DNA of 29,552 bases from a virus. Of this stretch, positions 2,391 to 28,525 are shown piece after piece. The stretch lies in the IMG/VR virus record IMGVR_UViG_3300020233_000005, positions 1 to 29,552 of that record; one strand, written 5' to 3'. Every line of letters begins with the position of its first letter. The stretch's first letter is position 1. The position numbers and the translations under genes are program-made. The notes beneath the pieces were generated by a model that was given only the letters and a program-made list of their open reading frames with translations, did not search any database and was not told where the DNA came from.

Positions 2391-2520
2391 ATACTCTACT
2401 AACTTTTTTGTCAGGGATAAACACCCAACAAAATTGTATTTGTATGTATTTGATTATAAATTTAATTTTTATGGTAAATGGGCAAAGACTATTAACAGTT
2501 TTCTTAGAAAGGCGGAATAA
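2368..2520 (+). CDS. Small basic hypothetical protein, 50 residues
   Basis: An ATG at 2368 opens a 50-residue frame ending at TAA 2518-2520. It starts MKQRKVIEYS and ends INSFLRKAE, with an aromatic-rich middle (LYLYVFDYKFNFYGKW). It overlaps the preceding gene by 23 bases, fills the gap exactly and stops three bases before the portal ATG. That packing is what a real phage gene looks like. Function is not recognised. Its 3' end also supplies the AAAGGCGG that lies before the portal start, one of the few SD-like sequences in the window. Confidence 0.6.
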   Translation: MKQRKVIEYSTNFFVRDKHPTKLYLYVFDYKFNFYGKWAKTINSFLRKAE

Positions 2521-2523
2521 AAT

Positions 2524-4338
2524 ATGGATGACAACAATTCAATAGGAGAAATAGTGCGAAAAATGGAGTCTAACTATCTTAGTGGTGAGTCTAAAATATC
2601 CAAGTATGTAATATTCAATCTTAATGAAAACATTGAAAAGATTTACGCTTACTTAAACTCTGTACCAGTATCAGGAAAGTACGATGCTAATAATGATGAA
2701 AAACCATTTATAAATATTGTGGTATCTGCTCGTAATATATGGATGCGTGCGACAGATATAGACACGAGTTGGATAAAGATACGTCCGACAACATCAAAAC
2801 AATTTATAACTGCGCTTGTTGCTACAACTAAAGTGCAAGATTGGATGAAAAAAACATTCTTTGCTAATTTTCTTAACGATTGGGGACGAATACTTGCTGG
2901 GTACGGGTCATGTATTACAAAAACAGTACGCAACAGTGATGGACTACATTTAACAACAATTCCTTGGAATAGCATCATTTGTGATGCCGTTGATTTTGAT
3001 GCAAATCCTAAAATAGAAATATTAGAACTGACTGAAGGTGAACTACGCAGGAGAGTAAAAACACACAAGTATGACAAAAAAGCAGTTGAAGAACTTATTG
3101 GTTCACAAAAAACAAGAGAAACTATTTCAGGCGTTAAAAAAGACAGTAAAAGTGACTATTACAAGCTATATGAAATACACGGAGAACTATCAAAGTATCT
3201 TTTGACAGACAAAGATAAAGACAAAGATGAGTTTGTACAACAAATGCATGTAATATCTTATGTGTCTAATGGAAGTAATAATAAAGAGTATGATGACTTC
3301 ACATTAGTACAGGGTCAGGAAGACAAAGACCCATATAGAATAACTCATCTTATTAAAGAAGATGGACGTTCACAATCAATTGGTTCTGTTGAGTCACTAT
3401 TTCAAACACAATGGATGGAAAATCACTCTATACTCGCACAAAAGAAACAACTTGACCTTGCTTCTAAACTTTTCTTTCAAACATCAGACCCAAAGTATGT
3501 GAGTGTAAATGTGATTAACGATATAGAAAACGGTGACATTTTACATCACACATTAAATCAGCCACTTACGCAAGTAAATAATGGGTCACACGATATAAGC
3601 TCACTACAAAACTTTTCTGCCTATTGGAAGTCAAGAGGAAATGAAACAGTTGGAATATCTGAAGCAATGCTTGGAGCTTCTGCTAAGAGTGGTACTGCAT
3701 GGAGACAAACAAAAGCATTACTTAATGAGTCATACAATTTATTTAAATTGATGACACAAAATAAAAGCAATAGTCTAAAAATGATGTTTCGTGAGGATAT
3801 AATTCCATTCATAAAAGAGACTGAGTTAAATAATTCAAAAGAAATAGAAGTTATTTTGGATGCTTACGATATTAAACAGTTTGATACTAAATATTTAACA
3901 GCAGAAGCGAATAGACGTTTTAATGACTCTGTAATAGAGTCGGCGTTGACAGACAAAGATATGCCAATGATGGAAGCTGTCCAAGCTCAAGTACAAGGAG
4001 AACTTAACGACATGGGAGATAAGCGGTTCTTAAAACCATCGGAAGTACCTAATGTTGTATGGAAAGAAATGCTTAAAGATATTGAATGGGAACTTGATAT
4101 AGATATAACCGGGGAAGCAAAAGATACACAAGAAGCTATGGCAACACTCAATACAGCATTGCAAACAGTTATGATACCTGGTTATGCTCAGAATGAGGAA
4201 GCAAAGATGATTGTAGCAAAGATTTTGGGAATGACGGGTGTGATTTCACCGCTTGAACTTACAGGTATACAGGGACAACCAGCGCAGGCACCACAGCCTG
4301 CACAGGTTCCACAGGTCGGCGCTGGTATACCACAGTGA
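2524..4338 (+). CDS. Portal protein
   Basis: This 604-residue protein directly follows the packaging genes, and its size and composition fit a phage portal, the dodecameric ring at the packaging vertex through which DNA enters and leaves. Typical features are the long acidic and aromatic N-terminal half, a central segment around residues 375-400 (GNETVGISEAMLGA and the following SGTAWRQTKAL) resembling the portal stem helix region, and a Pro/Gln/Ala-rich C-terminal tail (QAPQPAQVPQVGAG). I assign it from gene order and these features, without a database match. An AAAGGCGG precedes the ATG by a suitable distance, so SD-assisted initiation is possible here. Confidence 0.85.
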   Translation: MDDNNSIGEIVRKMESNYLSGESKISKYVIFNLNENIEKIYAYLNSVPVSGKYDANNDEKPFINIVVSARNIWMRATDIDTSWIKIRPTTSKQFITALVATTKVQDWMKKTFFANFLNDWGRILAGYGSCITKTVRNSDGLHLTTIPWNSIICDAVDFDANPKIEILELTEGELRRRVKTHKYDKKAVEELIGSQKTRETISGVKKDSKSDYYKLYEIHGELSKYLLTDKDKDKDEFVQQMHVISYVSNGSNNKEYDDFTLVQGQEDKDPYRITHLIKEDGRSQSIGSVESLFQTQWMENHSILAQKKQLDLASKLFFQTSDPKYVSVNVINDIENGDILHHTLNQPLTQVNNGSHDISSLQNFSAYWKSRGNETVGISEAMLGASAKSGTAWRQTKALLNESYNLFKLMTQNKSNSLKMMFREDIIPFIKETELNNSKEIEVILDAYDIKQFDTKYLTAEANRRFNDSVIESALTDKDMPMMEAVQAQVQGELNDMGDKRFLKPSEVPNVVWKEMLKDIEWELDIDITGEAKDTQEAMATLNTALQTVMIPGYAQNEEAKMIVAKILGMTGVISPLELTGIQGQPAQAPQPAQVPQVGAGIPQ

Positions 4339-4359
4339 TAATAGTTAAATAAATAAATT

Positions 4360-4917
4360 ATGACGGAAGAAACAAACCTTTTAGTAAAAAAAGACGATGT
4401 TAAAATCATTAAAGCAATCTTCAAGGATAACGAAGACTTATTGAAAGCCATGCGAGCTGTTATGTTAGACATAAAACCTACAGAAAGTGAGAAGTCTAAT
4501 GTTAAAACAGCATTCGCAAATACAGAACTTTATAGGGTAATAAGTGAGCGTTTTTATCCAACACTTGAAGCTAGTAAAGATGCACCGATAGGACAGATAC
4601 AAGACGTATGGCTTGGTGCTGAAACAATGGTGTTTGCACAACACAGAGACACTGTACAGCAAGCAATAGGGTACAAGGAGCGTGCAATAAAAATGCTTAC
4701 TCTTGGATTGGCATTATTACTTAACCCAGACGGAGAAAAACCACGGACAAAGTTTGTACCAAGTGAAGTAGTTAATGATCCGCTTGCAATAGAACTGCAA
4801 ACACGGAATATGTATATAAAATTAATTGACACTCAATTAATGCACTTGTGGATTATTGCAGAGCAAGCAAGTGACGATAAAAAGGAAGAAAACAAAAAGA
4901 AGAATAGCACACAGTAA
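4360..4917 (+). CDS. Hypothetical head-region protein, 185 residues
   Basis: This mostly helical 185-residue protein lies between portal and scaffold, with acidic stretches, a hydrophobic segment around 112-122 (MLTLGLALLLN) and a lysine-rich end (KKEENKKKN). Phages of this general plan often encode a portal-associated or head-completion protein at this position. No motif fixes its role. The ATG is preceded by an AT-rich TAAATAAATAAATT with no SD. It ends the first proposed transcription unit, since a promoter follows at 4944. Confidence 0.7.
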   Translation: MTEETNLLVKKDDVKIIKAIFKDNEDLLKAMRAVMLDIKPTESEKSNVKTAFANTELYRVISERFYPTLEASKDAPIGQIQDVWLGAETMVFAQHRDTVQQAIGYKERAIKMLTLGLALLLNPDGEKPRTKFVPSEVVNDPLAIELQTRNMYIKLIDTQLMHLWIIAEQASDDKKEENKKKNSTQ

Positions 4918-4943
4918 AAAAAGTGTGATATAGTTATAAGCAA

Positions 4944-4973
4944 TTGACACTAAAGTCTTTAAAAAGAAATAAT
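4944..4973 (+). promoter_or_regulatory. Sigma70-like promoter for scaffold and capsid genes
   Basis: A perfect TTGACA -35 (4944-4949) and an AATAAT -10 (4968-4973, one mismatch) are separated by 18 bp. The predicted start falls about 4980, three or four bases before the ATG at 4984, so the mRNA would be leaderless or nearly so. It sits in the 66-bp gap after 4917, a sensible place for a strong capsid promoter. Confidence 0.6.
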
Positions 4974-4983
4974 AGACAAAACT

Positions 4984-5568
4984 ATGGAAAATGAATTAGA
5001 TGACTTCGACATCGAAAACGAAGAGGAAGACATCGAGGAAGAAGCTGACACCGAAGAGGAAGAAACTAAAGAAGAAGCCGAGGAAGAAGCTGACACCGAG
5101 GAAGACTCTGATGAATTAGAAACATTACGCAAAGAAAACAAAACACTACAAGCTCAAAAGGCTAAGTGGCGTGATAAAGCTAATAAACCTGTAGAGGTTA
5201 AAACTGAAGAGAAAGAGAAAGAGAAAGTTGACTCTAGCGAACCTACTCTTTCCAGTACAGATTTGCTATCACTTTTGGAAGCAAAGATAACGAATGAAAA
5301 AGACGTAGAACTTGTGACAAAAGACGCACAACTTCTAGGTGTTTCTATTTCTGAAGCTCTTAAGAACGACATTGTCGTTGAAAAGTTAAGAGTTATAAAT
5401 GAAAAAAGAAACACGGCCGACTCCACAAACACTCGTACTACTCGAGCTGGAAATAAAGGTATGTCTGATACTGAACTTATCAAAAAGGTTAATGCTGGAT
5501 ACATTCCAGAACCTGGCACAAAAGAAGCTGAACAGCTATTCTTGGCAAGACGTAAAGGACTAGAGTAA
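4984..5568 (+). CDS. Putative scaffolding protein
   Basis: This 194-residue protein lies just before the major capsid gene, the standard place for a scaffold, which shapes the prohead and then leaves or is degraded. Residues 1-45 are almost all Glu and Asp, with two similar EEADTEE blocks. Residues 45-75 form a charged coiled coil (ELETLRKENKTLQAQKAKW). The middle is Lys/Glu-rich. The C-terminus (GYIPEPGTKEAEQLFLARRKGLE) is basic and helical, as in scaffolds that dock onto coat protein. Its own promoter lies immediately upstream. The role is inferred from position and composition. Confidence 0.8.
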   Translation: MENELDDFDIENEEEDIEEEADTEEEETKEEAEEEADTEEDSDELETLRKENKTLQAQKAKWRDKANKPVEVKTEEKEKEKVDSSEPTLSSTDLLSLLEAKITNEKDVELVTKDAQLLGVSISEALKNDIVVEKLRVINEKRNTADSTNTRTTRAGNKGMSDTELIKKVNAGYIPEPGTKEAEQLFLARRKGLE

Positions 5569-5578
5569 ATATACGGCG

Positions 5579-5627
5579 GGAACCATTAAAAAATTAACAC
5601 GGTTCCTTTACAATTAAATATTGTAAA
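5579..5627 (+). promoter_or_regulatory. Two abutting stem-loops in the capsid gene leader
   Basis: Stem 1 pairs GGAACC (5579-5584) with GGTTCC (5601-5606) around a 16-base AT-rich loop, with a possible G-T closing pair. Stem 2 pairs TTTACAAT (5607-5614) with ATTGTAAA (5620-5627) around TAAAT. The stems touch end to end and could stack. They end 14 bases before the likely capsid start. Stem 1 lacks the T-run of a good terminator. A translational or RNA-processing element is more likely, and stem 2 could also be a DNA operator. Confidence 0.5.
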
Positions 5628-5641
5628 CACTACGAAAGCTT

Positions 5642-6508
5642 ATATTTAACACAAAAAGCACATACAGTCAGCGCGACAAATACTTCAAGTCACAATTTGA
5701 TATTGTTCTTAGGAACGCTATTATTGCCGAGAAGATTTGTAAAGTTGACCGTTCAGACCTTAAAAGAATTCAAAACCCATACGGAAACCAAATTACTGCG
5801 ACAATTCAAGCAGTTGCTGGTACGTACTCTGTAACAGCATGGACAATTACAGATGAAGCACTTACTGTAACTGATGAAGTAAACTTTTCAGAGCATATCT
5901 TTGCTCACGAAGAGTATTTTTCACAGTTTAGTTTGTCACAATCTCGTATTGACGAAATGATGTACGGAGTTGCTTATGGTATTGATAAGTTTGTTCTTAA
6001 CAATCTTACAGAAGATGCAACTGGTGCATACACAACTCCGGTTGGAGGATTTACCACTGCATCTAATATCAACACAATCTTTGCTAACTTACGTTCAAAG
6101 GTTGGTGGATACCAAAACAACTTCAATGGAATGGGAAACAAACTATTTGTTGTTCTTGAAGCAGCAGATATGGTTGGTGTAACTATTGCAGGAGCTACTA
6201 ACGGATTCAATTCTTCAGACTCTGTTCTTAAAAACGGACAAGTAGGAAGTTGGATGGGAGTAGACATCTTTGAAGTACAAGACGGAACGTTTGTTAATGC
6301 AACACTTGGTACTACTACAGTTACCAATTCTGGACATCGAGTATTTGGTGTAAAGAACGCATCAACATACGCTTCACCACGTGGACTCCAAATGGAGGAA
6401 AAAGGTGTATCAGGTAAAACTGGTAAGGAGATTGTAGTCTTTGGACTCGTAGGATTCAAACTATGGGCGCAAAAGGCAGGAATCACCGTTGATATTACGA
6501 TTTCCTAA
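5642..6508 (+). CDS. Major capsid protein (HK97-like fold), non-canonical start
   Basis: The frame is open from 5627 to the stop at 6508. From 5642 it gives 288 residues, normal for a major capsid protein. It reads FNTKSTYSQRDKYFK near the N-terminus, then KVDRSDLKRIQNPYGNQ, and ends GFKLWAQKAGITVDITIS, all typical of HK97-fold coat proteins. There is no in-frame ATG, GTG or TTG before TTG 5933 and ATG 5957, and starting there would discard about 100 well-formed residues. ATA at 5642 is the only sensible initiator-like codon. The alternatives are a mutated ATG or an assembly error. It lies between scaffold and head-completion genes, behind two stem-loops. Confidence 0.85.
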   Translation: MFNTKSTYSQRDKYFKSQFDIVLRNAIIAEKICKVDRSDLKRIQNPYGNQITATIQAVAGTYSVTAWTITDEALTVTDEVNFSEHIFAHEEYFSQFSLSQSRIDEMMYGVAYGIDKFVLNNLTEDATGAYTTPVGGFTTASNINTIFANLRSKVGGYQNNFNGMGNKLFVVLEAADMVGVTIAGATNGFNSSDSVLKNGQVGSWMGVDIFEVQDGTFVNATLGTTTVTNSGHRVFGVKNASTYASPRGLQMEEKGVSGKTGKEIVVFGLVGFKLWAQKAGITVDITIS

Positions 6509-7084: not shown

Positions 7085-7450
7085 ATGGCACAAGCACAAA
7101 ACTTAAACATACTGCCTACAGTAGATGGTAGCTCTGTAACACAGGCTACAAGCCGTACTACTGGTGTGACATTGAATGCTTCAGCAGGAGTTATTACAAC
7201 TAACAATGCGAGTCTTGCAGCAGAAGCAACAGCAGACTTCACTGTTACTAACTCTGAAGTTGGTGTGAATGATGTTGTTGCTGTATCAATTCGTTCTGGC
7301 TCAAATGGTGGAGGAACTATCGTATCTGTATCAACAGTTGCAAACGGTTCTTTCAAAGTTAGAGTATACAACGGAAACGTAGCAGCAGGAACAGCAGAAA
7401 CAGGAGCAATCCTAATTAACTTTGTTGTAGTAAACAAAGCTATTAAATAG
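7085..7450 (+). CDS. Probable capsid decoration or small head protein, 121 residues
   Basis: A small Ser/Thr/Ala/Val-rich beta protein with no charged core motif. Its segment QATSRTTGVTLNASAGVITT, followed by DFTVTNSEVGVNDVVAVSIRSG, strongly resembles small structural proteins found next to capsid genes in many environmental phages. The expected role is binding the outside of the capsid or acting as a head fibre base, but this is inferred. The 57-bp gap after it holds only a weak CCGT/ACGG stem (7461-7473) and two GACGGG copies. Confidence 0.7.
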   Translation: MAQAQNLNILPTVDGSSVTQATSRTTGVTLNASAGVITTNNASLAAEATADFTVTNSEVGVNDVVAVSIRSGSNGGGTIVSVSTVANGSFKVRVYNGNVAAGTAETGAILINFVVVNKAIK

Positions 7451-7507
7451 TTTCTTAACTCCGTTTTAGACGGGAAAGACGGGGATTAACAAATTAAATA
7501 AATTATT

Positions 7508-8149
7508 ATGCAATATCTAAATGGAACAACCTCGCAAATTGTAAAAGCTACACAGGGGACTCTTTATGGAATAATCGTAAACTCACATGCAAGTGGAACA
7601 ATACGCTTTAACGACGGAGCGTCTGGCACTACATCAGCAGGAGTAAAGGCAACTGGGACACTAACAGCATCTGGTACATTCTCTAATGGCGACACTATAA
7701 CAATAGGAGATGTTACTTATACAATGCGTACAGCATTGACAAGTCCGGCAGTTAAAAATGAAATACTTATAGGTGCAGCGGCACTTAACTCTCTTGATAA
7801 CATTAAACTTGCAGTAAACGCTGGCTCTGGCGAGGGTACCAATTATTCAACAGGAACTGTAGCCAATCCAAAAGTAACAGCAACTACAAATACAGACACG
7901 ACTCAAGTTGTAGAAGCTCGTGATATAGGTACTGACGGAAATTCTATAGTGACTACAGAAACAGGTACTAACTCCGCATGGGGCGCCGCAACACTAGAAA
8001 GTGGTGCAGAGTCTTCTTTACTAATAATAAACACATATACATTTCCAACAGGTTCAACATCATTGGTGTTTAATGCAGGAATAGACTTCCACTCTGCGTT
8101 GTATGTATCTAAGGGTGGAACTATAGATTACACACTAATCTACGAATAA
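7508..8149 (+). CDS. Head or tail surface protein with an inserted beta domain
   Basis: This 213-residue protein looks like two pieces of one small fold (residues 1-45, TLYGIIVNSHASGTIRF, and 170-213, ending KGGTIDYTLIYE) separated by a complete extra domain. The insert, about residues 48-166, begins ATGTLTASGTFSNGDTITIG and ends GAATLESGA. It belongs to a beta-rich module seen widely in phage tail and fibre proteins. The flanks alone would make an ordinary small decoration protein of about 100 residues. It is probably exposed on the virion. Start at ATG 7508, after an AT-rich leader without SD. Confidence 0.7.
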   Translation: MQYLNGTTSQIVKATQGTLYGIIVNSHASGTIRFNDGASGTTSAGVKATGTLTASGTFSNGDTITIGDVTYTMRTALTSPAVKNEILIGAAALNSLDNIKLAVNAGSGEGTNYSTGTVANPKVTATTNTDTTQVVEARDIGTDGNSIVTTETGTNSAWGAATLESGAESSLLIINTYTFPTGSTSLVFNAGIDFHSALYVSKGGTIDYTLIYE

Positions 8150-8150
8150 C

Positions 8151-8897
8151 ATGGAATTTTCCAACGTAACGACAAAAGACGGTGGATTACAGCTTTGCGA
8201 AACTTTATGTGGAATGGAAGACGGAGCTATCACAAGTGACGCTACACTTCTAAAGACATTCACAATGCTAGTCAATCAAGGCTTTGATAGTGTTATGCCT
8301 TATCTCCTATCTAACACTGATTACATACGCTGGGACGACCTCAATCACACAGACCAGCCTGTGGGGACATTTAACATCGTATCAGGGCAGAGTGATTACC
8401 AAGTAAAGCAAGATGATAATTCATTGGACATACTTAACATCACACGAGTGAAGTTCTTATCTAGTGCTACAGAAACGAAATATGCAGACTTGGAACGTAT
8501 GACCATTGATGACCAACGAGCAACCTCGGCAATGAGTCCTAACTCTGATGAAGTAGGAATACCAACACACTATCTTGAAAGGAACAACACAATCTATCTA
8601 TACCCACAGCCAAACTACGCTTCAACAGCAGGAGTGAAGATATGGTTTGAACGAGAGCAAAGCTACTTCGTCAGCACCGACACCACTAAACAACCTGGAA
8701 TACCTAAACCATTCCACGCAGTACCATTCTTATACGCTTCAAAGCGTTGGCTGTTGATAAATAAGTCAGACAAGGTAGCTATGATAAATGACGTCAACAA
8801 TGAGATAGCTGTCAAACAGGAACAGCTGGACAGCTTAATAACAAAAAGAAACCCTGTGCGTAGGCGTATGACAGGGGCAGTAACAGACGCAAGGTAA
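8151..8897 (+). CDS. Head-tail adaptor protein
   Basis: This 248-residue protein has the style of the adaptor that sits below the portal in short-tailed phages. It has a helical N-terminus (LLKTFTMLVNQGFDSVMPYL), then QSDYQVKQDDNSLDILNITR and THYLERNNTIYLYPQPNY, a beta core typical of this family. The C-terminal helical section (KRWLLINKSDKVAMINDVNN, EIAVKQEQLDSLITKRNPVR) ends basic. It links the head genes to the tail genes that follow. The start is one base after the preceding stop. Assignment rests on sequence style and order. Confidence 0.72.
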   Translation: MEFSNVTTKDGGLQLCETLCGMEDGAITSDATLLKTFTMLVNQGFDSVMPYLLSNTDYIRWDDLNHTDQPVGTFNIVSGQSDYQVKQDDNSLDILNITRVKFLSSATETKYADLERMTIDDQRATSAMSPNSDEVGIPTHYLERNNTIYLYPQPNYASTAGVKIWFEREQSYFVSTDTTKQPGIPKPFHAVPFLYASKRWLLINKSDKVAMINDVNNEIAVKQEQLDSLITKRNPVRRRMTGAVTDAR

Positions 8898-8898
8898 T

Positions 8899-9471
8899 AT
8901 GGTTACGCTTACTAATCAGAGTAGCAGTGCAGAAGTATTAGATGGTTTATTAAAAGACCAAGAAAATCCGTCTTCTAATCAGAACGCAGAATATTGGTTT
9001 GGCAGTACCACATATCGCGGACAGTCATTTACTACTGGGACTGATACTTTAAATATTAAGGATTATAAGTTATATATGAAGTATAGAAGTGGAACTTCAA
9101 ATATTTTATACTGCGATATTTATGTTTCAAGTAATGATAAACCAACTGGTAATAGTTTAGGACAAGCTAGTATTACTGCAATCTCCAATACATCGTTTGC
9201 TTGGTATAAGTTCACATTTTCTTCAGCTATAATTTTGAGTGCTTCAACTAAATATGTTGCTGTTGTAAGTTCTCCCTTGTCAGCCTCTAATGCTTATATT
9301 ATGGGTGGTGACACATTGGAATCATACAACAATGGTAAAACAGCAGGGTCAACAGACAGTGGGACAACTTGGACTGTAAATGATGGTGATTTAATTTTTG
9401 AAACATATACATATATTTATGGTATATCCAATCAACCCCTAAACACCACCACCCTAACAAACCAAACATGA
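8899..9471 (+). CDS. Tail-associated beta-sandwich protein, possible carbohydrate binder
   Basis: The 190 residues show a single beta-sandwich-like domain. YRGQSFTTGTDTLNIKDYKL, then LYCDIYVSSNDKPTGNSLGQ, then a SSAIILSASTKYVAVVSS strand pair and DGDLIFETYTY resemble the domains named choice-of-anchor in bacterial surface proteins. That suggests an exposed binding module on the tail. The ends are low-complexity (SSSAEV at the N-terminus, TTTLTNQT at the C-terminus). Codons look more AT-rich than the adaptor and tail genes either side, consistent with a recently acquired module. The next gene overlaps by ATGA. Confidence 0.6.
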   Translation: MVTLTNQSSSAEVLDGLLKDQENPSSNQNAEYWFGSTTYRGQSFTTGTDTLNIKDYKLYMKYRSGTSNILYCDIYVSSNDKPTGNSLGQASITAISNTSFAWYKFTFSSAIILSASTKYVAVVSSPLSASNAYIMGGDTLESYNNGKTAGSTDSGTTWTVNDGDLIFETYTYIYGISNQPLNTTTLTNQT

Positions 9472-10889
9472 GAATATTTAGCCTAATGACAAAAGACTAC
9501 CTTACTGGAATAGCTTCTGGTGCTCATATTGAGCGTGGTGGTATCTGGCATAAGGCAGAGGGTATCAACCCATTCGTCAACCCACGACAAGAGAGTGTGG
9601 ACACAGGGCTGTTGCAGACCTGCTCAGCGCCAACAGAGGTTACAGGTGGTGTGGGTGGTACACCACTCTCAACCGCCACACGAGTAACAGGTGCTAATGC
9701 TGGCACAACATACATAGGCACATCTCTTGGAGTATCACAGATAGATATGTCGGCAGATAACAACGCCACAAGTACACTTACTGTAGCGAATATGACAAAT
9801 GGGCTAGAATTATTTCAATCAAGAGGTGCAACAGCGGAATACTTATACTACTGGCAGACTACACAGATTGGACGTTACGGCGACTTAAACGGCACACCAA
9901 CTGCAACAGACGCTTGGGTTACAGGGCTACAAGACACAAGCTATCATCCAACACATAAGATGTGGGACGAGATATACTACGGTAACAAGGATAGGATTGG
10001 GCAGATTAAAGATGACGGAGCAGGTGGGCAGACTCATTCAGCTAATGTGATTGACTTTGAAAGTAACATGCTTGTAACAGCACTTGATGATGATGGGCAA
10101 TTTTTAGTGGTAGGACTTTCCACCAACCAAGGCGATAACAACATATACGGACATTCACTTGTACGCTTCTGGAAGATAAACTCTTCTTCTTGGTCTTATG
10201 AGTGGGCTATTCCAGAAGCAAACATCATTGCTATCAAACGAGTAGGAACAGCAATGTATGCACTCTGCCCTTATGGACTTTATATATTTAACAGGTCTAC
10301 AGCACCACGGCTAGTACGTTCTTTTAAAGACAATGCACCATTTGGTATGCACAACGCCTTATCAAGTTTAGGTGACTCGGTAGTAAACGGCACAGGAGCC
10401 AATGCTACACTAGGTTTTTACGGTAGGATACTACCAGATGTACCTACTGCATATCACGAGTTGTATAGTGGCGGATCAGGAGCTGTAACGCTAGTAGACG
10501 CAACTATAAAGAATAATAGGGTATTCGTAGGTACAAACACTCCAAAGCTCTACAGGTACGATATTTCAACAGGTGGAGCTACTGGTACAGCTGAAACGGT
10601 ATATATTGCACTTAGGGAACGGTATGACATAAGTAGAATAGAAGTTATCCTAGGAGAGCCACTAGCGAGTGGTGATAGTTTGAATATAGACGTGCAGTCA
10701 GATGAAGATAACGTAGCCACAGACTGGGGGACAATATCGTTTGCTCTTCACGGTGCTAAAAAGCGAATAGCCTTGGAAAAGAAAAAGGACAACGTAGATA
10801 ACTTGAAACTAATCTTCAACTTTAACGCAGGTAATGTGAAGATAAAGCAAGTGAATATTTACGGAGATAAACGAAATAAAAATGGTTAA
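9468..10889 (+). CDS. Tail structural protein, probable beta-propeller (nozzle or hub)
   Basis: This 473-residue protein has repeated short strands rich in Gly, Asp and aromatic residues (LLYYWQTTQIGRYGDLNG-like blades, MLVTALDDDGQFLVVGLS, MYALCPYGLYIFNRS, RVFVGTNTPKLYRYD), a pattern typical of beta-propellers. The C-terminal domain (RISRIEVILGE-like strands, ending VKIKQVNIYGDKRNKNG) is a separate beta unit. Between adaptor and fibre, the nozzle or tail hub of a short-tailed phage is the best guess. It overlaps the previous gene by four bases and the fibre gene by eight. Confidence 0.62.
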   Translation: MRIFSLMTKDYLTGIASGAHIERGGIWHKAEGINPFVNPRQESVDTGLLQTCSAPTEVTGGVGGTPLSTATRVTGANAGTTYIGTSLGVSQIDMSADNNATSTLTVANMTNGLELFQSRGATAEYLYYWQTTQIGRYGDLNGTPTATDAWVTGLQDTSYHPTHKMWDEIYYGNKDRIGQIKDDGAGGQTHSANVIDFESNMLVTALDDDGQFLVVGLSTNQGDNNIYGHSLVRFWKINSSSWSYEWAIPEANIIAIKRVGTAMYALCPYGLYIFNRSTAPRLVRSFKDNAPFGMHNALSSLGDSVVNGTGANATLGFYGRILPDVPTAYHELYSGGSGAVTLVDATIKNNRVFVGTNTPKLYRYDISTGGATGTAETVYIALRERYDISRIEVILGEPLASGDSLNIDVQSDEDNVATDWGTISFALHGAKKRIALEKKKDNVDNLKLIFNFNAGNVKIKQVNIYGDKRNKNG

Positions 10890-13314
10890 TAAAAAACGGG
10901 GAGAACAAACACCAGTGGACATGAAATATGACGAGCCACAACACATTCTCAATCCAGTTAATGATTTAGAGAGTGGCTTTACTGAAATGGAGTTTAATAA
11001 AGTGCCAGAGGGAATACAGTCAAATAATTACTCATCAGGTAGTGCAGGGTGGAGAATAGACAAAGACGGTAACATTTATGCTAATTCAGGTACGTTTAGT
11101 GGTGCTTTAATTGCAGGAGAGTTACACATACCAGATAGAGATACTACAGCTAACTCATTCCATGTTGCTACTGACGGTAACGCATGGTGGGGTGCTACTG
11201 AAACAGATTTTAACTTAGATAATAGTAATGCTACTGCTTATGTTCTTAAGACAGGAGTGGCGAAGTTTAAAAGCGTAACACTTGATACAAATGTCACACT
11301 TTCGGGATTACAAGCTGGTTCAGCAATAGACGGGCAATATTTAGATGCGTTGTCGGTTGCTAGTGCTTCTGTTGCCTCAAGTGCAATATCAACAGCTAAG
11401 ATAGCAACTGACGCTGTGACACAAGCAAAAATAGCGGCACTTGCAGTTGGCTCTACTGAATTAGCAGCGGGAGCGGTTATCGCAGGTAAAATAACAGCCG
11501 GAACAATAGTAACTGGTGATATTGCCTCAAATACTATAACTGCAGCGAATATAGCAGCACTAACTATAACTGCTAGTGAATTAGCTACAGACTCTGTAAC
11601 GGCAGCTAAGATAGTTGCAGGAACTATTACTGCTACTGAAATGACTATTGCACAATTATCTGCCATAAACGCAGACATGGGAGCAATAACAGCAGGTACA
11701 ATCACATTACCTAGTGGTGGTCATATTAAAAGTGGGCAAACAGCGTATGAAACAGGAATTGGTTTTTATCTCGGCAATGATAGTGGTACTGTTGTGTTTT
11801 CTATGGGTAACTCAACAGACTACTTCAAATGGGACGGTACATCTGTGAAGATACTTGCAAGCGGTGTAAACGCCATAACCATTGATTATGGCTCTGATAT
11901 TCTCTTAAAAGAGGGTGGGGACATTAAGTTTACTTCTGTAACAGCACCAACGGCTTTAACATCAGCACTCATCACATCAGCAGGAAATGTAGACGCAGGA
12001 ACACATACTTATAAAGTTACTTATGTAAATGATAGTGGTGGGACGGAACAAGGAGGAGCCTCAAACACAGTGACTAACGACGCTTCAAATGCTCAAAATG
12101 CTTTAACAAATATTCCAGTTAGCACATCTGGTTCGGTAACTTCTAGGAAGATATATAGGACAAAAGCTGGGGGTACAAGTTATTTTTTACTTACTACGAT
12201 TGCAAATAACACGGCTACAACTTATACAGATAATACTGCGGATAGTGGTTTGACAGGAAATGGTACTTCAATAAGTGAAAATAATAGTTTTGGAAAAATT
12301 AAGATAGATGATGTTAGTGTTTTTAGTATAGGAACTAAAAATACCTTCGTTGGAGAAAATAGTGGGATTTCAAATACAGCGGGCGTTAGAAATGCTGGAT
12401 TAGGTAATTATGCATTAGTTTCTAACATAGCAGGTTATAACAATACTGCTCTTGGTAATAATTCTTTGAACCAAAATACAATAGGTTGGAGCAATACGGG
12501 AGTTGGTTATACTGCGCTAGTTAGAAATACAACTGGTAGTTATAATACTGCTCTTGGTGCTTGGGCATTAGAATCAAGTGTAACAGGTTTTAATAATATT
12601 GGACTTGGATATTTTGCTGGGTCTAAAGCCACTGGTTCAAACGAACTCTACATAGACAACCAACCACGAGCATCAAACGCAGTAGAAAAAACAAACTCCA
12701 TAATCTACGGAGTAATGGCTTCTACACCCGCAAGTCAGACTCTTACAGTTAATGCTTTATTAAAGGTAAATGGAGACGAAACACTAGACGGTACATTAAG
12801 TATAAAAGAACAAGCTAGTGCTAATGCTGACGTTGCAGGGTATGGACAACTATGGGTTAAAATAGCTACACCAAATGAATTGTGGTTTACTGATGACGCA
12901 GGAAATGATAGAGAAATAGGAAGTGAAAATGCACAGACGAAAAATGTAGAAGTAGTCCTTACAGACAACAGCACAGCTCCGACAGTAGTAGATGGATTGG
13001 GAGATATGTACTTCATAGTACCAGCAGAATTAGATGGTATGAACCTTGTATCAGTTGGCGCTCATGCGACAACAGTGTCATCATCAGGGCTTCCGTCATT
13101 TCAAATACACAACCTTTCAAATGCCCTAGATATGTTGAGTACAAATATAACCTTAGATGTAAGTGAAAAAGATTCTGCAACAGCAACTACCCCAGCAGTA
13201 ATAAATACATCTAATGACCATATAAATACAGGAGATGAAATAAGATTTGACTGTGATGTAGTCGGCACAGGGGCAAAAGGAATTACTATTAGACTTGGTT
13301 TTAGAACACCTTAG
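10882..13314 (+). CDS. Tail fibre protein
   Basis: This 810-residue modular fibre probably forms a trimer and binds the host. In order: a virion-attachment N-terminus (1-60), a WRIDKDGNIYANSGTFSG shaft opening, and a stretch near 160-260 of repeated A-K-I and T-I-T units (TAAKIVAGTITATEM) that suits a triple beta-helix. Then come a fibronectin-like domain near 355-450 (GTHTYKVTYVNDSGGTEQGG), four 17-residue NTALG-type repeats near 510-580 (GYNNTALGNNSLNQNTI), and a C-terminal tip domain ending GAKGITIRLGFRTP. The same 17-residue repeat type recurs in the secreted protein at 21153. Confidence 0.88.
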   Translation: MVNKKRGEQTPVDMKYDEPQHILNPVNDLESGFTEMEFNKVPEGIQSNNYSSGSAGWRIDKDGNIYANSGTFSGALIAGELHIPDRDTTANSFHVATDGNAWWGATETDFNLDNSNATAYVLKTGVAKFKSVTLDTNVTLSGLQAGSAIDGQYLDALSVASASVASSAISTAKIATDAVTQAKIAALAVGSTELAAGAVIAGKITAGTIVTGDIASNTITAANIAALTITASELATDSVTAAKIVAGTITATEMTIAQLSAINADMGAITAGTITLPSGGHIKSGQTAYETGIGFYLGNDSGTVVFSMGNSTDYFKWDGTSVKILASGVNAITIDYGSDILLKEGGDIKFTSVTAPTALTSALITSAGNVDAGTHTYKVTYVNDSGGTEQGGASNTVTNDASNAQNALTNIPVSTSGSVTSRKIYRTKAGGTSYFLLTTIANNTATTYTDNTADSGLTGNGTSISENNSFGKIKIDDVSVFSIGTKNTFVGENSGISNTAGVRNAGLGNYALVSNIAGYNNTALGNNSLNQNTIGWSNTGVGYTALVRNTTGSYNTALGAWALESSVTGFNNIGLGYFAGSKATGSNELYIDNQPRASNAVEKTNSIIYGVMASTPASQTLTVNALLKVNGDETLDGTLSIKEQASANADVAGYGQLWVKIATPNELWFTDDAGNDREIGSENAQTKNVEVVLTDNSTAPTVVDGLGDMYFIVPAELDGMNLVSVGAHATTVSSSGLPSFQIHNLSNALDMLSTNITLDVSEKDSATATTPAVINTSNDHINTGDEIRFDCDVVGTGAKGITIRLGFRTP

Positions 13315-20250: not shown

Positions 20251-21156
20251 ATGAAACCAGATAAAGCACAAAACTTCATAAAGGACAAGGACACGGCTAT
20301 GTTCAAAGAAATGGCTGAAACTAATGATAATCTTGAGGAAATCAAGAAAGCTGTTAAGGACAAGGTGGTGGTGGAGATAGGTGAGGTAACTGGCTTTGGA
20401 GACTTCGGTAAGGCAATAGACTCATTTAAGAAGTCACTTGGTGCTATCCAAAAGATAGAGGGGAAAGACGGACATACACCTTCAAATAGAGAGCTTGTAA
20501 ATTTAATCACACCACTAATTCCCAAGCCAGTAAAGGGAGAAGACGGACAGGACGCTGTGGTGGACTATGAGCGTGTAATCCGCGAAGTATTAAGTGAGAT
20601 AGAGCTACCAGAAGTAAACAAGCAGGAAATTATTGATGAGGTAGTGACACAACTCCCTACATCAGGCGATGCTATAAGGGACTCACTAGAACTTCTACAA
20701 AAAGGGGAACGCTTGTATGTAGACGCTATAGAAAGCAAAAAAGGCAGGGGACTAGACGAGATTATCCAAGACCTCTACAAGAGAATAGCTAATAAAGTAC
20801 AACACATTGGAGGTTCTATTCGGCTGTGGGTTTCAGAGGAAGACGGCAACCCAGATATACAAACAAGTAAAATACGCTTCCCTAATGGCTCAGTGACACA
20901 GAATGCAGATGACACTGTATCTGTTACAATAACAGCAGAGGTATATACTTCTGATTTGTCAAGCCAAGTGGACAATGTATTGAAAGTGTTTACAGTGCCA
21001 GCACACACTAGAGTTTTATCAGTAACATGTACCGACTTCCCGATTATTTATCGACCCGTTGTGGACTTCACAACCAGTGGCACGACACTGACACTAACTG
21101 CAGAAGTTCAACCACCAAGTTTAAGTGCAACATTATTATTTACATATATCGTATGA
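20251..21156 (+). CDS. Fibre-base or baseplate-type structural protein
   Basis: This 301-residue protein has a helical N-terminal half (MKPDKAQNFIKDKDTAMFKE; EVLSEIELPEVNKQEIIDEV), a KGEDGQDAVVDYE linker, then a short coiled coil (GRGLDEIIQDLYKRIANKV). The C-terminal beta domain (DNVLKVFTVPAHTRVLSVTC to PPSLSATLLFTYIV) is of a type found at the ends of phage tail fibre or host-specificity proteins. It likely anchors or helps assemble receptor-binding proteins. It is first in its operon, behind an extended -10 promoter. Its stop overlaps the ATG of the secreted adhesin gene (ATGA), so the two are translated together. Confidence 0.65.
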   Translation: MKPDKAQNFIKDKDTAMFKEMAETNDNLEEIKKAVKDKVVVEIGEVTGFGDFGKAIDSFKKSLGAIQKIEGKDGHTPSNRELVNLITPLIPKPVKGEDGQDAVVDYERVIREVLSEIELPEVNKQEIIDEVVTQLPTSGDAIRDSLELLQKGERLYVDAIESKKGRGLDEIIQDLYKRIANKVQHIGGSIRLWVSEEDGNPDIQTSKIRFPNGSVTQNADDTVSVTITAEVYTSDLSSQVDNVLKVFTVPAHTRVLSVTCTDFPIIYRPVVDFTTSGTTLTLTAEVQPPSLSATLLFTYIV

Positions 21157-23726
21157 AAATCATCATAACAATCGCAATCTTTTTAACAGTATTTGCTGTA
21201 GCTTACGCTGCACCATCATCGCAGTCGTTTAGAACATTGCTACCAACAACAGACTCTACTTATGATTTAGGTAGTGCTGTAAAACGCTGGGCAAATGTAT
21301 ATACAGATAACATAGACGCTACTACAATGCTCATTTCAGGAAGCTCTACAGGTGACCTAGACGGAGGTGGATTTAGTCTTATTAACTGGAAGAACTTGAC
21401 ACTTTCAGGAACCCTCGGCGTAACAGGAGCCTCCACTCTCGCAACCACCACAATCTCTGGAAACCTCGCGGTAAACACAAACCAACTTTATGTTGATACG
21501 AGTACGGGGAGGGTTGGGATTGGGACGAGTACGCCAAGTAAGAAACTTAATATTTTATCTACTGGAAGTGACCAATTGAGGTTGTCTTATAGTGCTTCTA
21601 AGTACACAGATTTTTGGGTAAGCTCTGCAGGTAATATCTATGTCCAACCATCAGGAGGGACATTATATTCGTATGGTAACGTGGATATAAGTGGTGGTAT
21701 TCAATCAAACTACGGTGCAACTATCAATAATCAACAAAATAATTCAGACACAAGGATTAGTGGGGTATCTGATGTAAATCTCTTTTATGCAGACTCATCA
21801 ACAGACAGAATCGGCATCGGCACCACGGCACCTTCACAAAAGCTAGACGTGGCGGGGAATATCAATATCTCGGCAGGCTCTTCACTTAAGATAGCAGGAA
21901 CTGATGTTCTTACCGCCTCCACCACCAATAGCTCGGTAACACTCGGGCAAAATGCTGGGGCAAACCTTGGTGCGACTGCGTTGTATAACACGGCGATTGG
22001 TATAAATGCGTTGAAAGTTGCGACGAGTAGTAATAATAATACTGCGGTTGGATATCAAGCTCTTAAATCTAATACAACAGGAGCTAATAATACCGTCCAA
22101 GGAACGAATGCTCTATACTTTAACACCACAGGTGGCAGTAACTCAACACAAGGTGTAAATTCTCTTTTTTACAACACCACAGGTTCTAACAACTCTGTAC
22201 AGGGTTTTCAAACACTCTACTCCAACACCACAGGTTCTAACAACTCTGTACAGGGATACGGTGCATTAAATGCAAACACTACAGGCTCTAACCTCACCGC
22301 ACAAGGATACCAAGCAGGGCGCTACATCACAGGTGGAGCAATTGCAAACGCCACCTCTTCAACTTCACTCTACCTAGGAGCTCTAACCAAAGCACTTGCC
22401 TCAGGGGACACGAACGAAATAGTGATTGGCTATGGAGCCGTAGGAGTGGGGAGTAACTCGGTGGTATTGGGGAATAGTAGTGTTGCCACGACGGTGTTGA
22501 GGGGGAATGTGGGGATTGGAAACACTTCACCAAGCTACAAACTAGATATCTCAGGCACACTAAACGCAACAGGAGCCGTAACTCTTGGTTCAACACTCCT
22601 TGTATCTGGACAAGTAGATTTGGGTCTTGATGTTGGTGGGGGTAAGTTTAATTCTTATAAAACAACAACTGGAACATCAGGGACTGAATACAACACTGTC
22701 ATCCGTCAAGACTCTCTTCCTACATCCCCTTCAACACTTACTAATGTCGCACTTTATACACAGGCACAGCACCATGGTAATGCTACTGTTGGTATTTCAG
22801 GTCTTACTAGCTTAAAAGCAGTTACTACAAACAGTGATACGACTACTGTTATTAACAGCAAGGGTATAGATGTGAGTGTTACTCAAAACTTAGGCACCCT
22901 AACCAATACTTATGGTGTGTATGTTGGTGATATTACTACAGGTACGCAAACAAATACGCCATTCTCTTTTTACGCCTCTGACGCGAATACATATAACTAT
23001 TTTGCGGGGAATGTAGGGATAGGTACGACAAATCCGAATACATATGGAGAAGGTGCAACTACATTAGCTGTATATGGAGAAGGTTCAAATTTATATGTTG
23101 GAGATAATACAGACGGGGTTCGCCTTGAACAATCTGGAGCAACTTCTGCATTACGATTTGGAAATTATACAACTGGAGGAGCCTCTGCATTCTTGCAATA
23201 TAATAGAGCAACAGGAAAACTTCAATATTCTGAAGGGATAGAAGGTTCTAGGGATGATTTTTTCACTATAGGTAATACAGGCAACGTCGGGATTGGGACC
23301 ACGGCTCCAGTAGGAAAACTTGATGTTTATGGTCAGACAACAGACGCTGTAAGTCTTGTGTCTAAAACAAATGCAACAGATGCTGGTCTAAAACTTGCAT
23401 TCTTCGGTGCAAATAGGTCAACAGCAGATGAAGAGATGGCAGCAATAAGACCTTTGTTGGTAAGTAATAATGGTGGGGCTGGTAATGTACAACTAGGACA
23501 GCTTGCATTTGATACCTCTGGAGTTGAAAGAATGAGGATAGACAAAGACGGAAATGTAGGTATTGGGACGACGACGCCAGGTGCACTACTTACCGTTGAC
23601 AACGGTGACATATATGTCGCTTCTCCAACTAAAGGAATAATACTAACTTCACCAGATGGTACATGCGCGCGAGGGACTATAGATAATTCTGATGTCTTAA
23701 CATTTGCTAGTGTAACCTGCCCATAA
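21153..23726 (+). CDS. Secreted adhesin-like fibre protein with signal peptide
   Basis: From ATG 21153 the product has 857 residues. Residues 1-20 (MKIIITIAIFLTVFAVAYAA) are a classic Sec signal peptide with AYA-A cleavage. Then follow TTDSTYDLGSAVKRWANVYT, six VGIGTTTP-type fibre units, five 17-residue NNT/NNS repeats (GSNNSVQGYGALNANTT) near 300-390, and a C-terminus PDGTCARGTIDNS to FASVTCP. The start/end combination is typical of Patescibacteria surface proteins. A longer frame from 21027 overlaps the preceding gene and lacks the signal at its N-terminus, so it is rejected. Likely roles are a surface-displayed adhesin or, if the signal is not cleaved, a virion fibre. A Sec signal on a phage fibre is unusual. 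Confidence 0.82.
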   Translation: MKIIITIAIFLTVFAVAYAAPSSQSFRTLLPTTDSTYDLGSAVKRWANVYTDNIDATTMLISGSSTGDLDGGGFSLINWKNLTLSGTLGVTGASTLATTTISGNLAVNTNQLYVDTSTGRVGIGTSTPSKKLNILSTGSDQLRLSYSASKYTDFWVSSAGNIYVQPSGGTLYSYGNVDISGGIQSNYGATINNQQNNSDTRISGVSDVNLFYADSSTDRIGIGTTAPSQKLDVAGNINISAGSSLKIAGTDVLTASTTNSSVTLGQNAGANLGATALYNTAIGINALKVATSSNNNTAVGYQALKSNTTGANNTVQGTNALYFNTTGGSNSTQGVNSLFYNTTGSNNSVQGFQTLYSNTTGSNNSVQGYGALNANTTGSNLTAQGYQAGRYITGGAIANATSSTSLYLGALTKALASGDTNEIVIGYGAVGVGSNSVVLGNSSVATTVLRGNVGIGNTSPSYKLDISGTLNATGAVTLGSTLLVSGQVDLGLDVGGGKFNSYKTTTGTSGTEYNTVIRQDSLPTSPSTLTNVALYTQAQHHGNATVGISGLTSLKAVTTNSDTTTVINSKGIDVSVTQNLGTLTNTYGVYVGDITTGTQTNTPFSFYASDANTYNYFAGNVGIGTTNPNTYGEGATTLAVYGEGSNLYVGDNTDGVRLEQSGATSALRFGNYTTGGASAFLQYNRATGKLQYSEGIEGSRDDFFTIGNTGNVGIGTTAPVGKLDVYGQTTDAVSLVSKTNATDAGLKLAFFGANRSTADEEMAAIRPLLVSNNGGAGNVQLGQLAFDTSGVERMRIDKDGNVGIGTTTPGALLTVDNGDIYVASPTKGIILTSPDGTCARGTIDNSDVLTFASVTCP
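22172..22255 (+). repeat. 51-bp tandem repeat core in the secreted fibre gene
   Basis: Two identical 33-bp blocks (22172-22204 and 22223-22255) have a 51-bp period, which equals one 17-residue repeat. Neighbouring units (about 22080-22310) are more diverged. Identity at the DNA level points to recent expansion of the repeat. Confidence 0.85.
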
Positions 23727-23727
23727 T

Positions 23728-24078
23728 ATGAGAAAGAAACTAGCAATACTGGCAACAACATTAGTTATATCAGCAGGAGCTGTGGTAGCTCCTGTGTTGC
23801 CACCACAGGGTATGCCGATAAATGAGTATCAAGCGCTTGTGGAGATGTATGACTATGAGATTAAGGAAATGAACGCTCGTGGTGATAATGTGTTTGTAAA
23901 CGTCACAAGTAGAAATGAGTTATTGTCTAAACTGAATACATACATACGCAATAATCCGACAAAGAAAGATAAGGTACTTGGAGTTTCTAAGGAAACGTAT
24001 ACAGCTATGCGTGAATATTTAATCATACAATCTGAAACAAAAGGAAAACGCAGGTCGTTAATTCAAATAATAAGATGA
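23728..24078 (+). CDS. Small exported protein, 116 residues
   Basis: An N-terminal MRKKLAILATTLVISAGAVV followed by APVLPPQG looks like a basic head plus hydrophobic core with an AVVA cleavage site, so export by Sec is likely. There is no lipobox Cys. The mature part is charged and helical (INEYQALVEMYDYEIKEMNA; NELLSKLNTYIRNNPTKKDK). No family is recognised. It starts one base after the stop of the secreted fibre gene and overlaps the next gene by ATGA. It may be a chaperone or anchor of the fibre, a spanin-like envelope protein, or a superinfection-exclusion factor. Confidence 0.65.
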   Translation: MRKKLAILATTLVISAGAVVAPVLPPQGMPINEYQALVEMYDYEIKEMNARGDNVFVNVTSRNELLSKLNTYIRNNPTKKDKVLGVSKETYTAMREYLIIQSETKGKRRSLIQIIR

Positions 24079-24275
24079 AAGAGACTCCATATACAAAAAG
24101 AGAACAAGACCAATTCCGTGACAGTATTCACGTTAAGTTAGATGCTATAATTATTCAAACTACTGAAACCAACGGCAAGGTTAGAAAAATCACACTTGGT
24201 CTTGCCATTGCTTTTGGACTTATTGTCGGTCTTGGAGTAACAGATTTGTCATCGTTAATAAAAATATTTATATGA
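24075..24275 (+). CDS. Holin-like or XhlA-like small membrane protein
   Basis: The 66 residues comprise an N-terminal amphipathic, charged helix (YTKREQDQFRDSIHVKLDAI) and one C-terminal membrane span (ITLGLAIAFGLIVGLGVTDL). This layout fits hemolysin XhlA-like proteins that accompany endolysins and help permeabilise the membrane. It directly precedes the amidase gene, sharing ATGA. It could be the holin itself or a helper, since two other small membrane genes lie after the amidase. Confidence 0.65.
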   Translation: MKETPYTKREQDQFRDSIHVKLDAIIIQTTETNGKVRKITLGLAIAFGLIVGLGVTDLSSLIKIFI

Positions 24276-24850
24276 TAATACAATCTCCATCACCAAACTT
24301 CTCAAGTAGTAAATACAAAAAGGTAGGAGTGCAACTGCACGCTACTATAGGACTCATGCCAGGAACACTTAATTGGTTGCGCAACCCACGTTCTTTCGCA
24401 TCAGCGCACTACCTTGTGACAAAAGACGGTACGATACACCAACTTGTTCAGTTAAAGGACAGAGCGTGGACTTCTGGACGAATTGGGGGTGTTTCAGAGC
24501 GTGCTAAACGTATAATGCTACGTACCTTGTGGGGTTCATATGTTAAACCAGGGCATTATCTTATTCAAATAGAAGTTGAGTGTCTTAAAGGGGAAACATA
24601 TACAGAAGAACAGTATCAGAGTATAGTTGAATTATGTAATCAGTTTGATTTTGATGTTACTGAAAACAATTTAATCACTCACAGAGATACATACAGTATT
24701 AAACCTAATCTTGAAAAAGAACGCACAGAGATACTTAAAAGGCTAGGAACTATAAACAAATGTGACTCTCAACCTTTAGTATTAAACAACTGGGGACAAT
24801 TAAGTATAAAGGTTGTAGAGGGTAGAATAATTTTAAGTAAAAAAATATGA
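24272..24850 (+). CDS. Endolysin, N-acetylmuramoyl-L-alanine amidase (Amidase_2 type)
   Basis: This 192-residue enzyme should cut the bond between MurNAc and L-alanine in peptidoglycan at the end of infection. Visible family signatures are VQLHATIG with H23 as first zinc ligand, SAHYLVTKDGTIHQLV (45-59), DRAWTSG (63-69), IQIEVE (98-103) and ITHRDTYSIKP with H137 as second ligand and K144. The usual AWHAG histidine is Thr67, and the third ligand position after K144 reads N146, not Asp or Cys. There is no signal peptide, so release depends on a holin. The C-terminal 35 residues are an unassigned small module. Confidence 0.82.
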   Translation: MIIQSPSPNFSSSKYKKVGVQLHATIGLMPGTLNWLRNPRSFASAHYLVTKDGTIHQLVQLKDRAWTSGRIGGVSERAKRIMLRTLWGSYVKPGHYLIQIEVECLKGETYTEEQYQSIVELCNQFDFDVTENNLITHRDTYSIKPNLEKERTEILKRLGTINKCDSQPLVLNNWGQLSIKVVEGRIILSKKI

Positions 24851-27963: not shown

Positions 27964-28036
27964 AATTTATCCTTTACTTAATAACTTTTTAGCTTCGCCT
28001 ATGGCATATGTCATAGTATCTAAGATGTCATACCAT
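27961..28036 (-). pseudogene. 76-bp duplicate of the 3' end of gene 28529-28762
   Basis: This segment matches 28523-28598 with five mismatches in 76 bp. Read on the minus strand it still encodes a relic DILDTMTYAIGEAKKLLSKG plus stop and the following ATT-ATG, against DILGAMTYAIGEAKKLLSKG in the parent. An in-frame TAA precedes the relic, so it is no longer a gene. The last codons and stop of gene 28028-28525 also fall within it, in another frame. Confidence 0.85.
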
Positions 28037-28525
28037 TAACTTATAACGCTTGCCCTCTACAGTGATAATATCATTGCTTTTGACATCCTCTGGCCTGATA
28101 CCTGTAATGTACGTGAAGCCTTCCCAAGAGAAAAATGGGATGTCTAGGTACTCCTGCTGTTCCTCTGGTGTGAGCTTGTTCCACATCTTCTTGAACGCTG
28201 GTGTATAACGAGTTTTGTAACTTTCTGATGAGTCAAACTCTAGTTTGTGGTAAATCCTTTTAATGTCAAAGTATTCTTCCTTAGTAACCTGCTTATTGAA
28301 CACTCTGTATCGTGGCTGTTGGAATGACTTATCATCGTTGTACTCTTCTGACCAGCAGAAGTAGTTGTACTCTGTCATTTTTAGATTTTTACAAGAGGTG
28401 CAATAGATGCAATAGGTGCAAGAGTCGCAAGAGTTGCAAAAGTCGCAAGAGTTGCAATAGGTGCAAGAGGTGCAATAGATGCAATAGATGCAAAAGTCGC
28501 AATCTATGTTTGTTTTTTCATTCAT
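28028..28525 (-). CDS. Cysteine tripeptide-repeat protein, 165 residues
   Basis: Residues 9-45 contain 13 cysteines at an exact period of three (pattern x-Tyr/Ser/Phe-Cys, as in CDFCIYCIYCTSC). The remainder is an ordinary globular domain (YRVFNKQVTKEEYFDIKRIY; FKKMWNKLTPEEQQEYLDIP; ITVEGKRYKLMV). A period of three could give a left-handed or ladder-like helix with a line of cysteines that binds metal or forms disulfides. This is inference. It is not a standard zinc finger. There is no signal peptide, and it may act in the reducing cytoplasm. The gene is a cassette between two copies of a 76-bp direct repeat. Confidence 0.75.
   Translation of the reverse strand: MNEKTNIDCDFCIYCIYCTSCTYCNSCDFCNSCDSCTYCIYCTSCKNLKMTEYNYFCWSEEYNDDKSFQQPRYRVFNKQVTKEEYFDIKRIYHKLEFDSSESYKTRYTPAFKKMWNKLTPEEQQEYLDIPFFSWEGFTYITGIRPEDVKSNDIITVEGKRYKLMV
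28391..28501 (-). repeat. Imperfect 9-bp tandem repeats encoding x-x-Cys units
   Basis: The plus strand shows a GCA/CGC-type nonamer (GCAATAGAT, GCAAGAGTT and variants) repeated with almost no break over 111 bp. The Cys codon position is fixed, while the two other residues vary among Tyr, Ser, Phe, Thr, Asn, Ile and Asp. Unit copies differ by only a few bases, as expected when repeats expand and drift. Confidence 0.85.

Follow-up and report, generated by a model that had tools for sequence, protein, structure and literature searches.

By the prevailing view, a phage has its fibres assembled within the host cell. The absence of a signal peptide has been used as support for a phage origin of fibre-like proteins, and the target proteins of phage diversity-generating retroelements were stated to have no export signal (e.g. 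PMC6199706). The MAT fibres of Bdellovibrio bacteriovorus are displayed at the cell surface and implicated in prey recognition, and all 21 of them have a conserved beta-rich domain of ~130 amino acids (aa) directly after the signal peptide (Caulton et al. 2024, PMC10769870). PblB, from streptococcal prophages, is a phage tail-fibre-like surface adhesin, with a signal peptide predicted in its pneumococcal form; the S. mitis protein leaves the cell through lytic-cycle permeabilisation, attaches to other cells and matters for tail morphogenesis (PMC4508584). Here, we analysed a viral DNA stretch of 29,552 nucleotides (positions 1 to 29,552 of the IMG/VR record IMGVR_UViG_3300020233_000005, hereafter the window) and describe in it a phage-encoded, fibre-like protein with a predicted Sec signal peptide. 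The protein and its parts are the following:

21153..23726, + strand: fibre-like protein of 857 aa, probably exported (translation; PHROGs tail-fibre and virion structural families; PDB 8ond, E=6e-9)
21153..21209, + strand: predicted Sec signal peptide, residues 1-19, MKIIITIAIFLTVFAVAYA then APSS (top N-terminal hydropathy; n-region, h-region and AxA rule)
21210..21482, + strand: phage-type shaft motif LLPTTDSTYDLGSAVKRWANVYTDN, residues 20-110 (segment search: 10 viral loci, 0 cellular)
21930..22577, + strand: YadA-head-like repeats and post-head module, residues 260-475, common to exported chromosomal fibres of the same bacterial order and to many viral fibres
22578..23012, + strand: orphan stretch, residues 476-620, with no relatives among the loci searched (segment search)
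23013..23492, + strand: GIGTTAP fibre repeats, residues 621-780 (segment search: 12 viral loci, 1 cellular)
23574..23723, + strand: tip module, residues 808-857, with Cys838 and Cys856 (alignments; last 30 residues modelled as three-stranded beta, predicted local distance difference test score about 92-94)

The sole PDB sequence matches with E<0.01 were MAT fibres (8ond, as above, and 8ojn, E=5e-4; phmmer). Like them, the window protein has a signal peptide, phage-fibre-like GIGTTxP repeats and a variable tip, and has no S74 domain, since a Pfam scan found no C-terminal S74 peptidase/chaperone domain in it. Unlike them, it is phage-encoded and single-copy, and the ~130-aa N-terminal domain, compared by its description, is missing: residues 20-110 match viral shaft motifs and no exported cellular fibre. 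With PblB it shares a phage tail-fibre-like character and, for the pneumococcal form, a predicted signal, whereas the other domains differ and the host phylum is unrelated. Ordinary tail fibres with a YadA-like head resemble it in head, shaft, repeat modules and late-gene position, but have no signal, where the window protein has both a signal and a cysteine-pair tip. In other words, it has the modules and the late position of a phage virion tail fibre together with, by our rule, an export signal that such a fibre should lack. In the open-access papers searched, signal-bearing phage fibres were not described as a class, and pneumococcal PblB was the single precedent.

A preliminary description of the locus had announced an 857-residue, fibre-like product with a clear signal peptide, and all of this was borne out. 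The open reading frame (ORF) starts with the ATG at 21153, ends with a stop at 23726 and has an ATGA overlap with the upstream gene, and its translation matched virion structural, tail-fibre and tail-spike families of PHROGs (lowest E 2e-19). It lies between virion-type genes and an amidase gene, a late-gene position. Its N-terminus has the n-region, h-region and AxA features of a signal rule that we wrote ourselves and that is uncalibrated on a known set, and it ranks first in N-terminal hydropathy among the scored proteins of the contig hosting the window (C1), the protein encoded at 23728 being second. The natural cleavage site is predicted after Ala19, and cleavage after A17 would also be compatible. 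The shaft motif begins at residue 29, shortly after this site. Judged from its sequence, the fibre is a mosaic of a phage-type shaft, a YadA-like head and the tip.

The signal was found to recur among viral fibres with the same head module. From 80 viral loci kept, 72 had an intact fibre start and fell into 49 groups by N-terminal sequence; the background consisted of the other ORFs >= 200 aa on the same contigs, most of which are fragments, deduplicated and scored like the fibres. A signal was present in 13/49 distinct intact head-module fibres versus 9/210 other ORFs (post hoc p=1.2e-5). When alternative starts were allowed for both, 14 fibres and 10 background ORFs scored (p=6e-6); when shared C-termini were collapsed, 12/46 fibres had a signal (p=2.6e-5), and the strictest threshold gave p-values of 3e-4 to 1.3e-3. 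These figures replace a first count of 14/49 versus 9/212 (p=3e-6), in which alternative starts had been given to the fibres and not to the background. Several background positives adjoin signal-bearing fibres and bear signals themselves (L204, L233, L244, L264), and therefore the contrast is conservative in that respect. The earlier premise that phage fibres normally lack signals thus fails for this module family, about a quarter of whose sampled members carry one. The signal frequency varies between fibre families and is not a rate for all phages: a first sample of about 35 fibres, collected with other patterns, held few signals, two of them strong (L008, L019). The viral contig L019, with archaeal-looking genes, encodes two large proteins with signal-like N-termini (2449-5793 and 7374-9797), one of which is a fibre.

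The likely cleavage sites, read by eye, had a small residue followed by Gln at +1 in 10/13 signal-bearing fibres (L204, L207, L213, L220, L233, L238, L248, L252, L263 and L264). For 10/14 and a Gln frequency of 2.8%, a binomial test of this pattern, noticed before it was tested and hence post hoc, gave 3e-13 at a fixed position and 1e-6 when five positions were allowed. A Gln+1 rule has been published for the signal-peptidase substrates of Bacteroidetes (PMC5837995), which suggests Bacteroidota hosts for these contigs. Virion or lysis genes were found on ten of the 13 signal-bearing contigs (L199, L204 with lysis genes only, L207, L213, L220, L228, L238, L244, L252 and L263), L233 and L248 lying outside this test; the capsid gene of L213 sits on its record, L272, and one of the ten confirmed contigs is a phage with a tape-measure gene. 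For L264, a peptidase was the sole yield of the check. Two further contigs with virion or lysis genes, L194 and L212, encode signal-like fibres that fall short of the rule in one feature. The capsid families of the signal-bearing contigs differ (e.g. phrog_283, 1328, 1005, 267), indicating that the signal trait is spread over several lineages.

These data bear on an alternative, that of an ordinary virion fibre, cytoplasmic until lysis, whose hydrophobic N-terminus serves in virion anchoring or in assembly and resembles a signal incidentally. Modules and gene position are indeed as in virion fibres, and both the 36/49 head-module fibres without a signal and the few signals in the first sample agree with it. 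However, the relatives mostly obey a taxon-specific signal-peptidase rule, no signal-less viral tip was seen to have the cysteine pair, and the frame relation to the upstream gene varies by locus, which argues against a fused read-through fibre. We regard this alternative as unlikely. On the same ground, a frameshift fusion or read-through joining the upstream 301-aa gene to the fibre was rejected.

The C-terminus reads PDGTCARGTIDNSDVLTFASVTCP (SPDGTC...VTCP) and holds both cysteines of the protein, exactly two. AlphaFold, run on residues 700-857, was confident for the last ~30 residues only, predicted as a small three-stranded unit in which Cys838 and Cys856 may lie close together by strand register. 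In the segment search, the best match of the tip was an exported Cytophagales protein (61%), and on genome contigs the tip ends proteins in Cytophagales, Pyrinomonadaceae, Terriglobia, Elusimicrobia and also Uhrbacteria. The PDGTC...VTCP ending announced by the preliminary description is therefore present, but it is not typical of Patescibacteria as had been proposed: beyond the other phyla, 2/379 other sampled genomes of the phylum have the tip. In one (G183), the tip-ended protein is encoded near a type II/IV secretion ATPase; in the other (G351), the tip closes a pilin-like protein of a pilin operon, and the same protein carries the shaft motif. The cysteine pair was present in exported cellular proteins and in one pilin-like protein and in 0/20 viral tips retrieved with the tip query, which fits a cysteine form of the tip in an oxidising compartment. 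On L229, a viral contig that lacks the start of its fibre, the C-terminus is CTITVKNGLVTATTCP. A patescibacterial pilin-like protein (L084 859-1605; L142 3159-3905) ends with a similar shaft motif and cysteine tip, the two elements that bracket the window fibre.

The genes around the fibre, and a second fibre of the same phage, are listed below:

10882..13314, + strand: second fibre with YadA-head-like repeats and, by rule, no signal peptide, serving as internal control (PHROGs)
20251..21156, + strand: 301-aa gene with ATGA overlap with the fibre, possible connector or adaptor, short collagen-like stretches seen by eye (position, translation)
23728..24078, + strand: second protein with a signal peptide or an anchor at its N-terminus, 116 aa (rule; second most hydrophobic N-terminus)
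24075..24275, + strand: 66-aa protein with a C-terminal transmembrane segment, holin-like by position only (translation; Pfam without match)
24272..24850, + strand: endolysin, N-acetylmuramoyl-L-alanine amidase (Pfam PF01510, E=1e-14; PHROGs amidase/endolysin)

Searches of Pfam and PHROGs gave the 301-aa protein no family of its own and the 23728 protein no significant match. The 10882 fibre matches the signal-bearing fibre at 31% over 216 aa. A distant relative of the window phage (L008, record G508) has a putative portal matching at 25% over 607 aa (E=4e-37), and has the major head protein and an adaptor in common with it. At the corresponding place it encodes, in order, a 291-aa collagen/tail-fibre protein, then after an ATGA overlap a 790-aa signal-bearing fibre, then a 131-aa transmembrane protein. 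Even across so deep a split, the signal therefore stays with this gene position.

Altogether, Sec export of the window fibre is probable, being the most economical explanation of the signal, the tip cysteines, the cleavage sites in relatives and the synteny. What the exported protein does can be proposed more tentatively. We consider it possible, if short of probable, that it is a late fibre exported by the host Sec machinery, not assembled in the cytoplasm onto virions, and that it acts as a decoy or exclusion fibre. It would be expressed with the virion genes, shortly before lysis; Sec would export it and signal peptidase I would cleave after Ala19. Outside the cell, it would trimerise into a beta fibre that has a YadA-like head and a disulfide between Cys838 and Cys856 closing the tip, and, still ahead of lysis, it would be retained at, or shed from, the infected cell's envelope. 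Head and tip would then occupy surface structures otherwise bound by 10882, the fibre of the virion itself, whose head repeats are similar, making it a decoy or exclusion fibre, and the cell might become stickier too. The head repeats common to 10882 and the pre-lysis position fit such a role, and the exported fibre need not be the virion fibre, because the same phage has the signal-less 10882.

The upstream genes raise another option, in which an exported receptor-binding fibre folds and acquires its disulfide bond outside and, after lysis, docks on the connector of released virions, perhaps the 301-aa protein. A connector-like gene precedes the fibre in the window, L008, L238 and L263 (labelled 'baseplate wedge tail fiber protein connector' by PHROGs in the last two), and lysis genes come after it in the window, L238 and L263. 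The other signal-bearing records, most of them fragments, show no second fibre of this kind, and the exported one could there be the receptor-binding protein. Nevertheless, the window phage owns a second, signal-less fibre, no precedent was found in the literature searched, and docking has no sign in the sequence, which makes this option unlikely. As a general statement, namely that many tailed phages, with the window protein and at least 12 viral fibre lines among them, export by Sec a receptor-binding fibre that matures outside and joins virions after lysis, it appears quite improbable.

The head module leads to the host. In the first set, the best matches of the head and post-head modules were exported fibres encoded by chromosomes of the host's order (segment search), the fibre head matching one of them, from G217, at 71% over 70 aa (E=4e-27). 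Related head modules were found in 12/148 relatives, mostly on long ORFs and several with a signal or anchor, and the phage's own bin contains the start of such a long fibre gene beside an L21-like gene. These exported long fibres (G217, G244, G436 and others) share with the window protein the head and post-head module and, in several cases, a signal or anchor; they differ in being mostly 1500-4100 aa and chromosomal, some with an extra N-terminal domain, and in their C-termini. A scan of IMG/VR with the post-head module then gave 173 contigs, of which the closest viral heads matched at 70-78%, versus 71% for the chromosomal one, and the signal-less 10882 fibre has modules in common with the same chromosomal proteins. 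Capture of the head from the host, seemingly strong against the first viral set, was dropped once these equally close viral heads were known, and the capture suggested by the preliminary description is not demonstrable. The alignments make module exchange between phage and host order clear and favour neither direction. The closest relatives, which that description would have expected to be ordinary signal-less fibres if it was wrong, are a mixture of signal-bearing and signal-less ones. Long chromosomal exported or anchored fibres with phage-like head repeats were noted in G217 C8/C5 (L172, L173), G081 (L174), G244 (L175, L185), G478 (L177, L178) and G436 (L186); two long chromosomal fibres lie on contigs with an ileS-like gene, and in some a signal is followed by a domain, 'ltFqarl...dGtYn', possibly equivalent to the MAT N-domain.

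In a further reading, the phage would have taken over a surface adhesin of its host and would display it so that the episymbiont attaches differently to its partner. This would agree with these related heads, in relatives and in the own bin, and with the part played by surface fibres and pili elsewhere: MAT fibres are implicated in Bdellovibrio prey recognition (PMC10769870), and a Saccharibacterium binds its host with the help of pili (PMC12206443). We find it very improbable. Viral heads are equally similar, which favours neither direction of transfer; the signal-less fibre of the phage has the same modules; attachment could hardly be changed in the short time left to a late gene next to the lysis cassette; and no integrase was recognised on C1, leaving lysogenic display unsupported. 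Taken simply as functions, the partner attachment and the exclusion of other phages put forward earlier are possible for such a sequence.

Several points weigh against an exported decoy or exclusion fibre. The signal rule was composed after the N-termini had been seen, which makes the enrichment p-values post hoc, and they concern one module family, most members of which have no signal. The Gln+1 evidence belongs to other phages, not to the window phage. Genes upstream of the fibre in L238 and L263 resemble tail-fibre connectors, suggesting a virion context, and the second fibre on which the division of labour relies was not found in the other, mostly fragmentary, signal-bearing records. No membrane or wall anchor was found that would hold the protein at the surface, and the Pfam scan gave no match to the C-terminal beta-barrel anchor of YadA-type trimeric autotransporters. 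Finally, two tip-bearing, signal-bearing proteins are without the cysteine pair (Runella L108/L109; L124, for which INPHARED yielded no relatives), and total cysteine content did not distinguish signal-bearing from signal-less fibres (p=0.26). Cysteine content was accordingly dropped as a general mark of export, and the tip pair alone was kept, with these exceptions.

That about a quarter of the fibres sampled from a module family bear signals, with cleavage sites following a taxon-specific rule and virion genes on the same contigs, would undermine the assumption that a phage fibre is recognised by lacking one. The implication would be that tailed phages put fibres onto infected cells or outside them, a matter that touches superinfection exclusion, virion release, partner attachment of episymbionts and how phage fibres relate to the MAT-type adhesins of predatory bacteria.

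C1 is 37,474 bp long and belongs to a 748-kb bin of 94% completeness. Its ends carry an exact direct terminal repeat of 28 bp, and its tetranucleotide correlation with the other bin contigs is 0.52-0.53, inside and near the bottom of the range of those contigs themselves (0.49-0.67). It is probably a closed phage genome and not a piece of chromosome. Pfam and PHROGs gave it a podovirus-like gene set (terminase subunits, major head protein, fibres, amidase), and TGA counts among its stop codons. No spacer-like 20-mers were common to C1 and 18 other contigs of the bin, and a search of IMG/VR for relatives of the TerL and the 670-aa protein of the window phage found none. In another genome of the phylum (G421), a 149-kb contig contains a prophage with an integrase and with homologues of the 670-aa protein (53% over 132 aa, E=1.5e-40), the 507-aa protein and the terminase of C1. 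Because this related prophage is integrated in the same phylum, the host assignment stands beyond binning. The phylum would be Patescibacteria, from the small genomes and from G183 proteins identical to those of an Uhrbacteria record. On the G421 chromosome (C1 of that genome), the prophage spans L136 16548 to about L137 17940, and no signal-bearing fibre was seen after its 728-aa gene.

As 23728 does in the window, further signal-bearing proteins often adjoin signal-bearing fibres in other phages: L204 (3535-4221, 9881-10381), L233 (5684-7105), L264 (9541-10761) and L244 (5808-6218, 6978-7436, 8437-10431). Such a fibre and its signal-bearing neighbours possibly form an exported cassette. Small downstream transmembrane genes, tried as a mark of signal-bearing fibres, were not informative (4/10 versus 7/28). 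Elsewhere in the window, 28028-28525 on the - strand encodes a 165-aa protein with 14 cysteines and cysteine repeats in a run (DCDFCIYCIYCTSCTYCNSC...).

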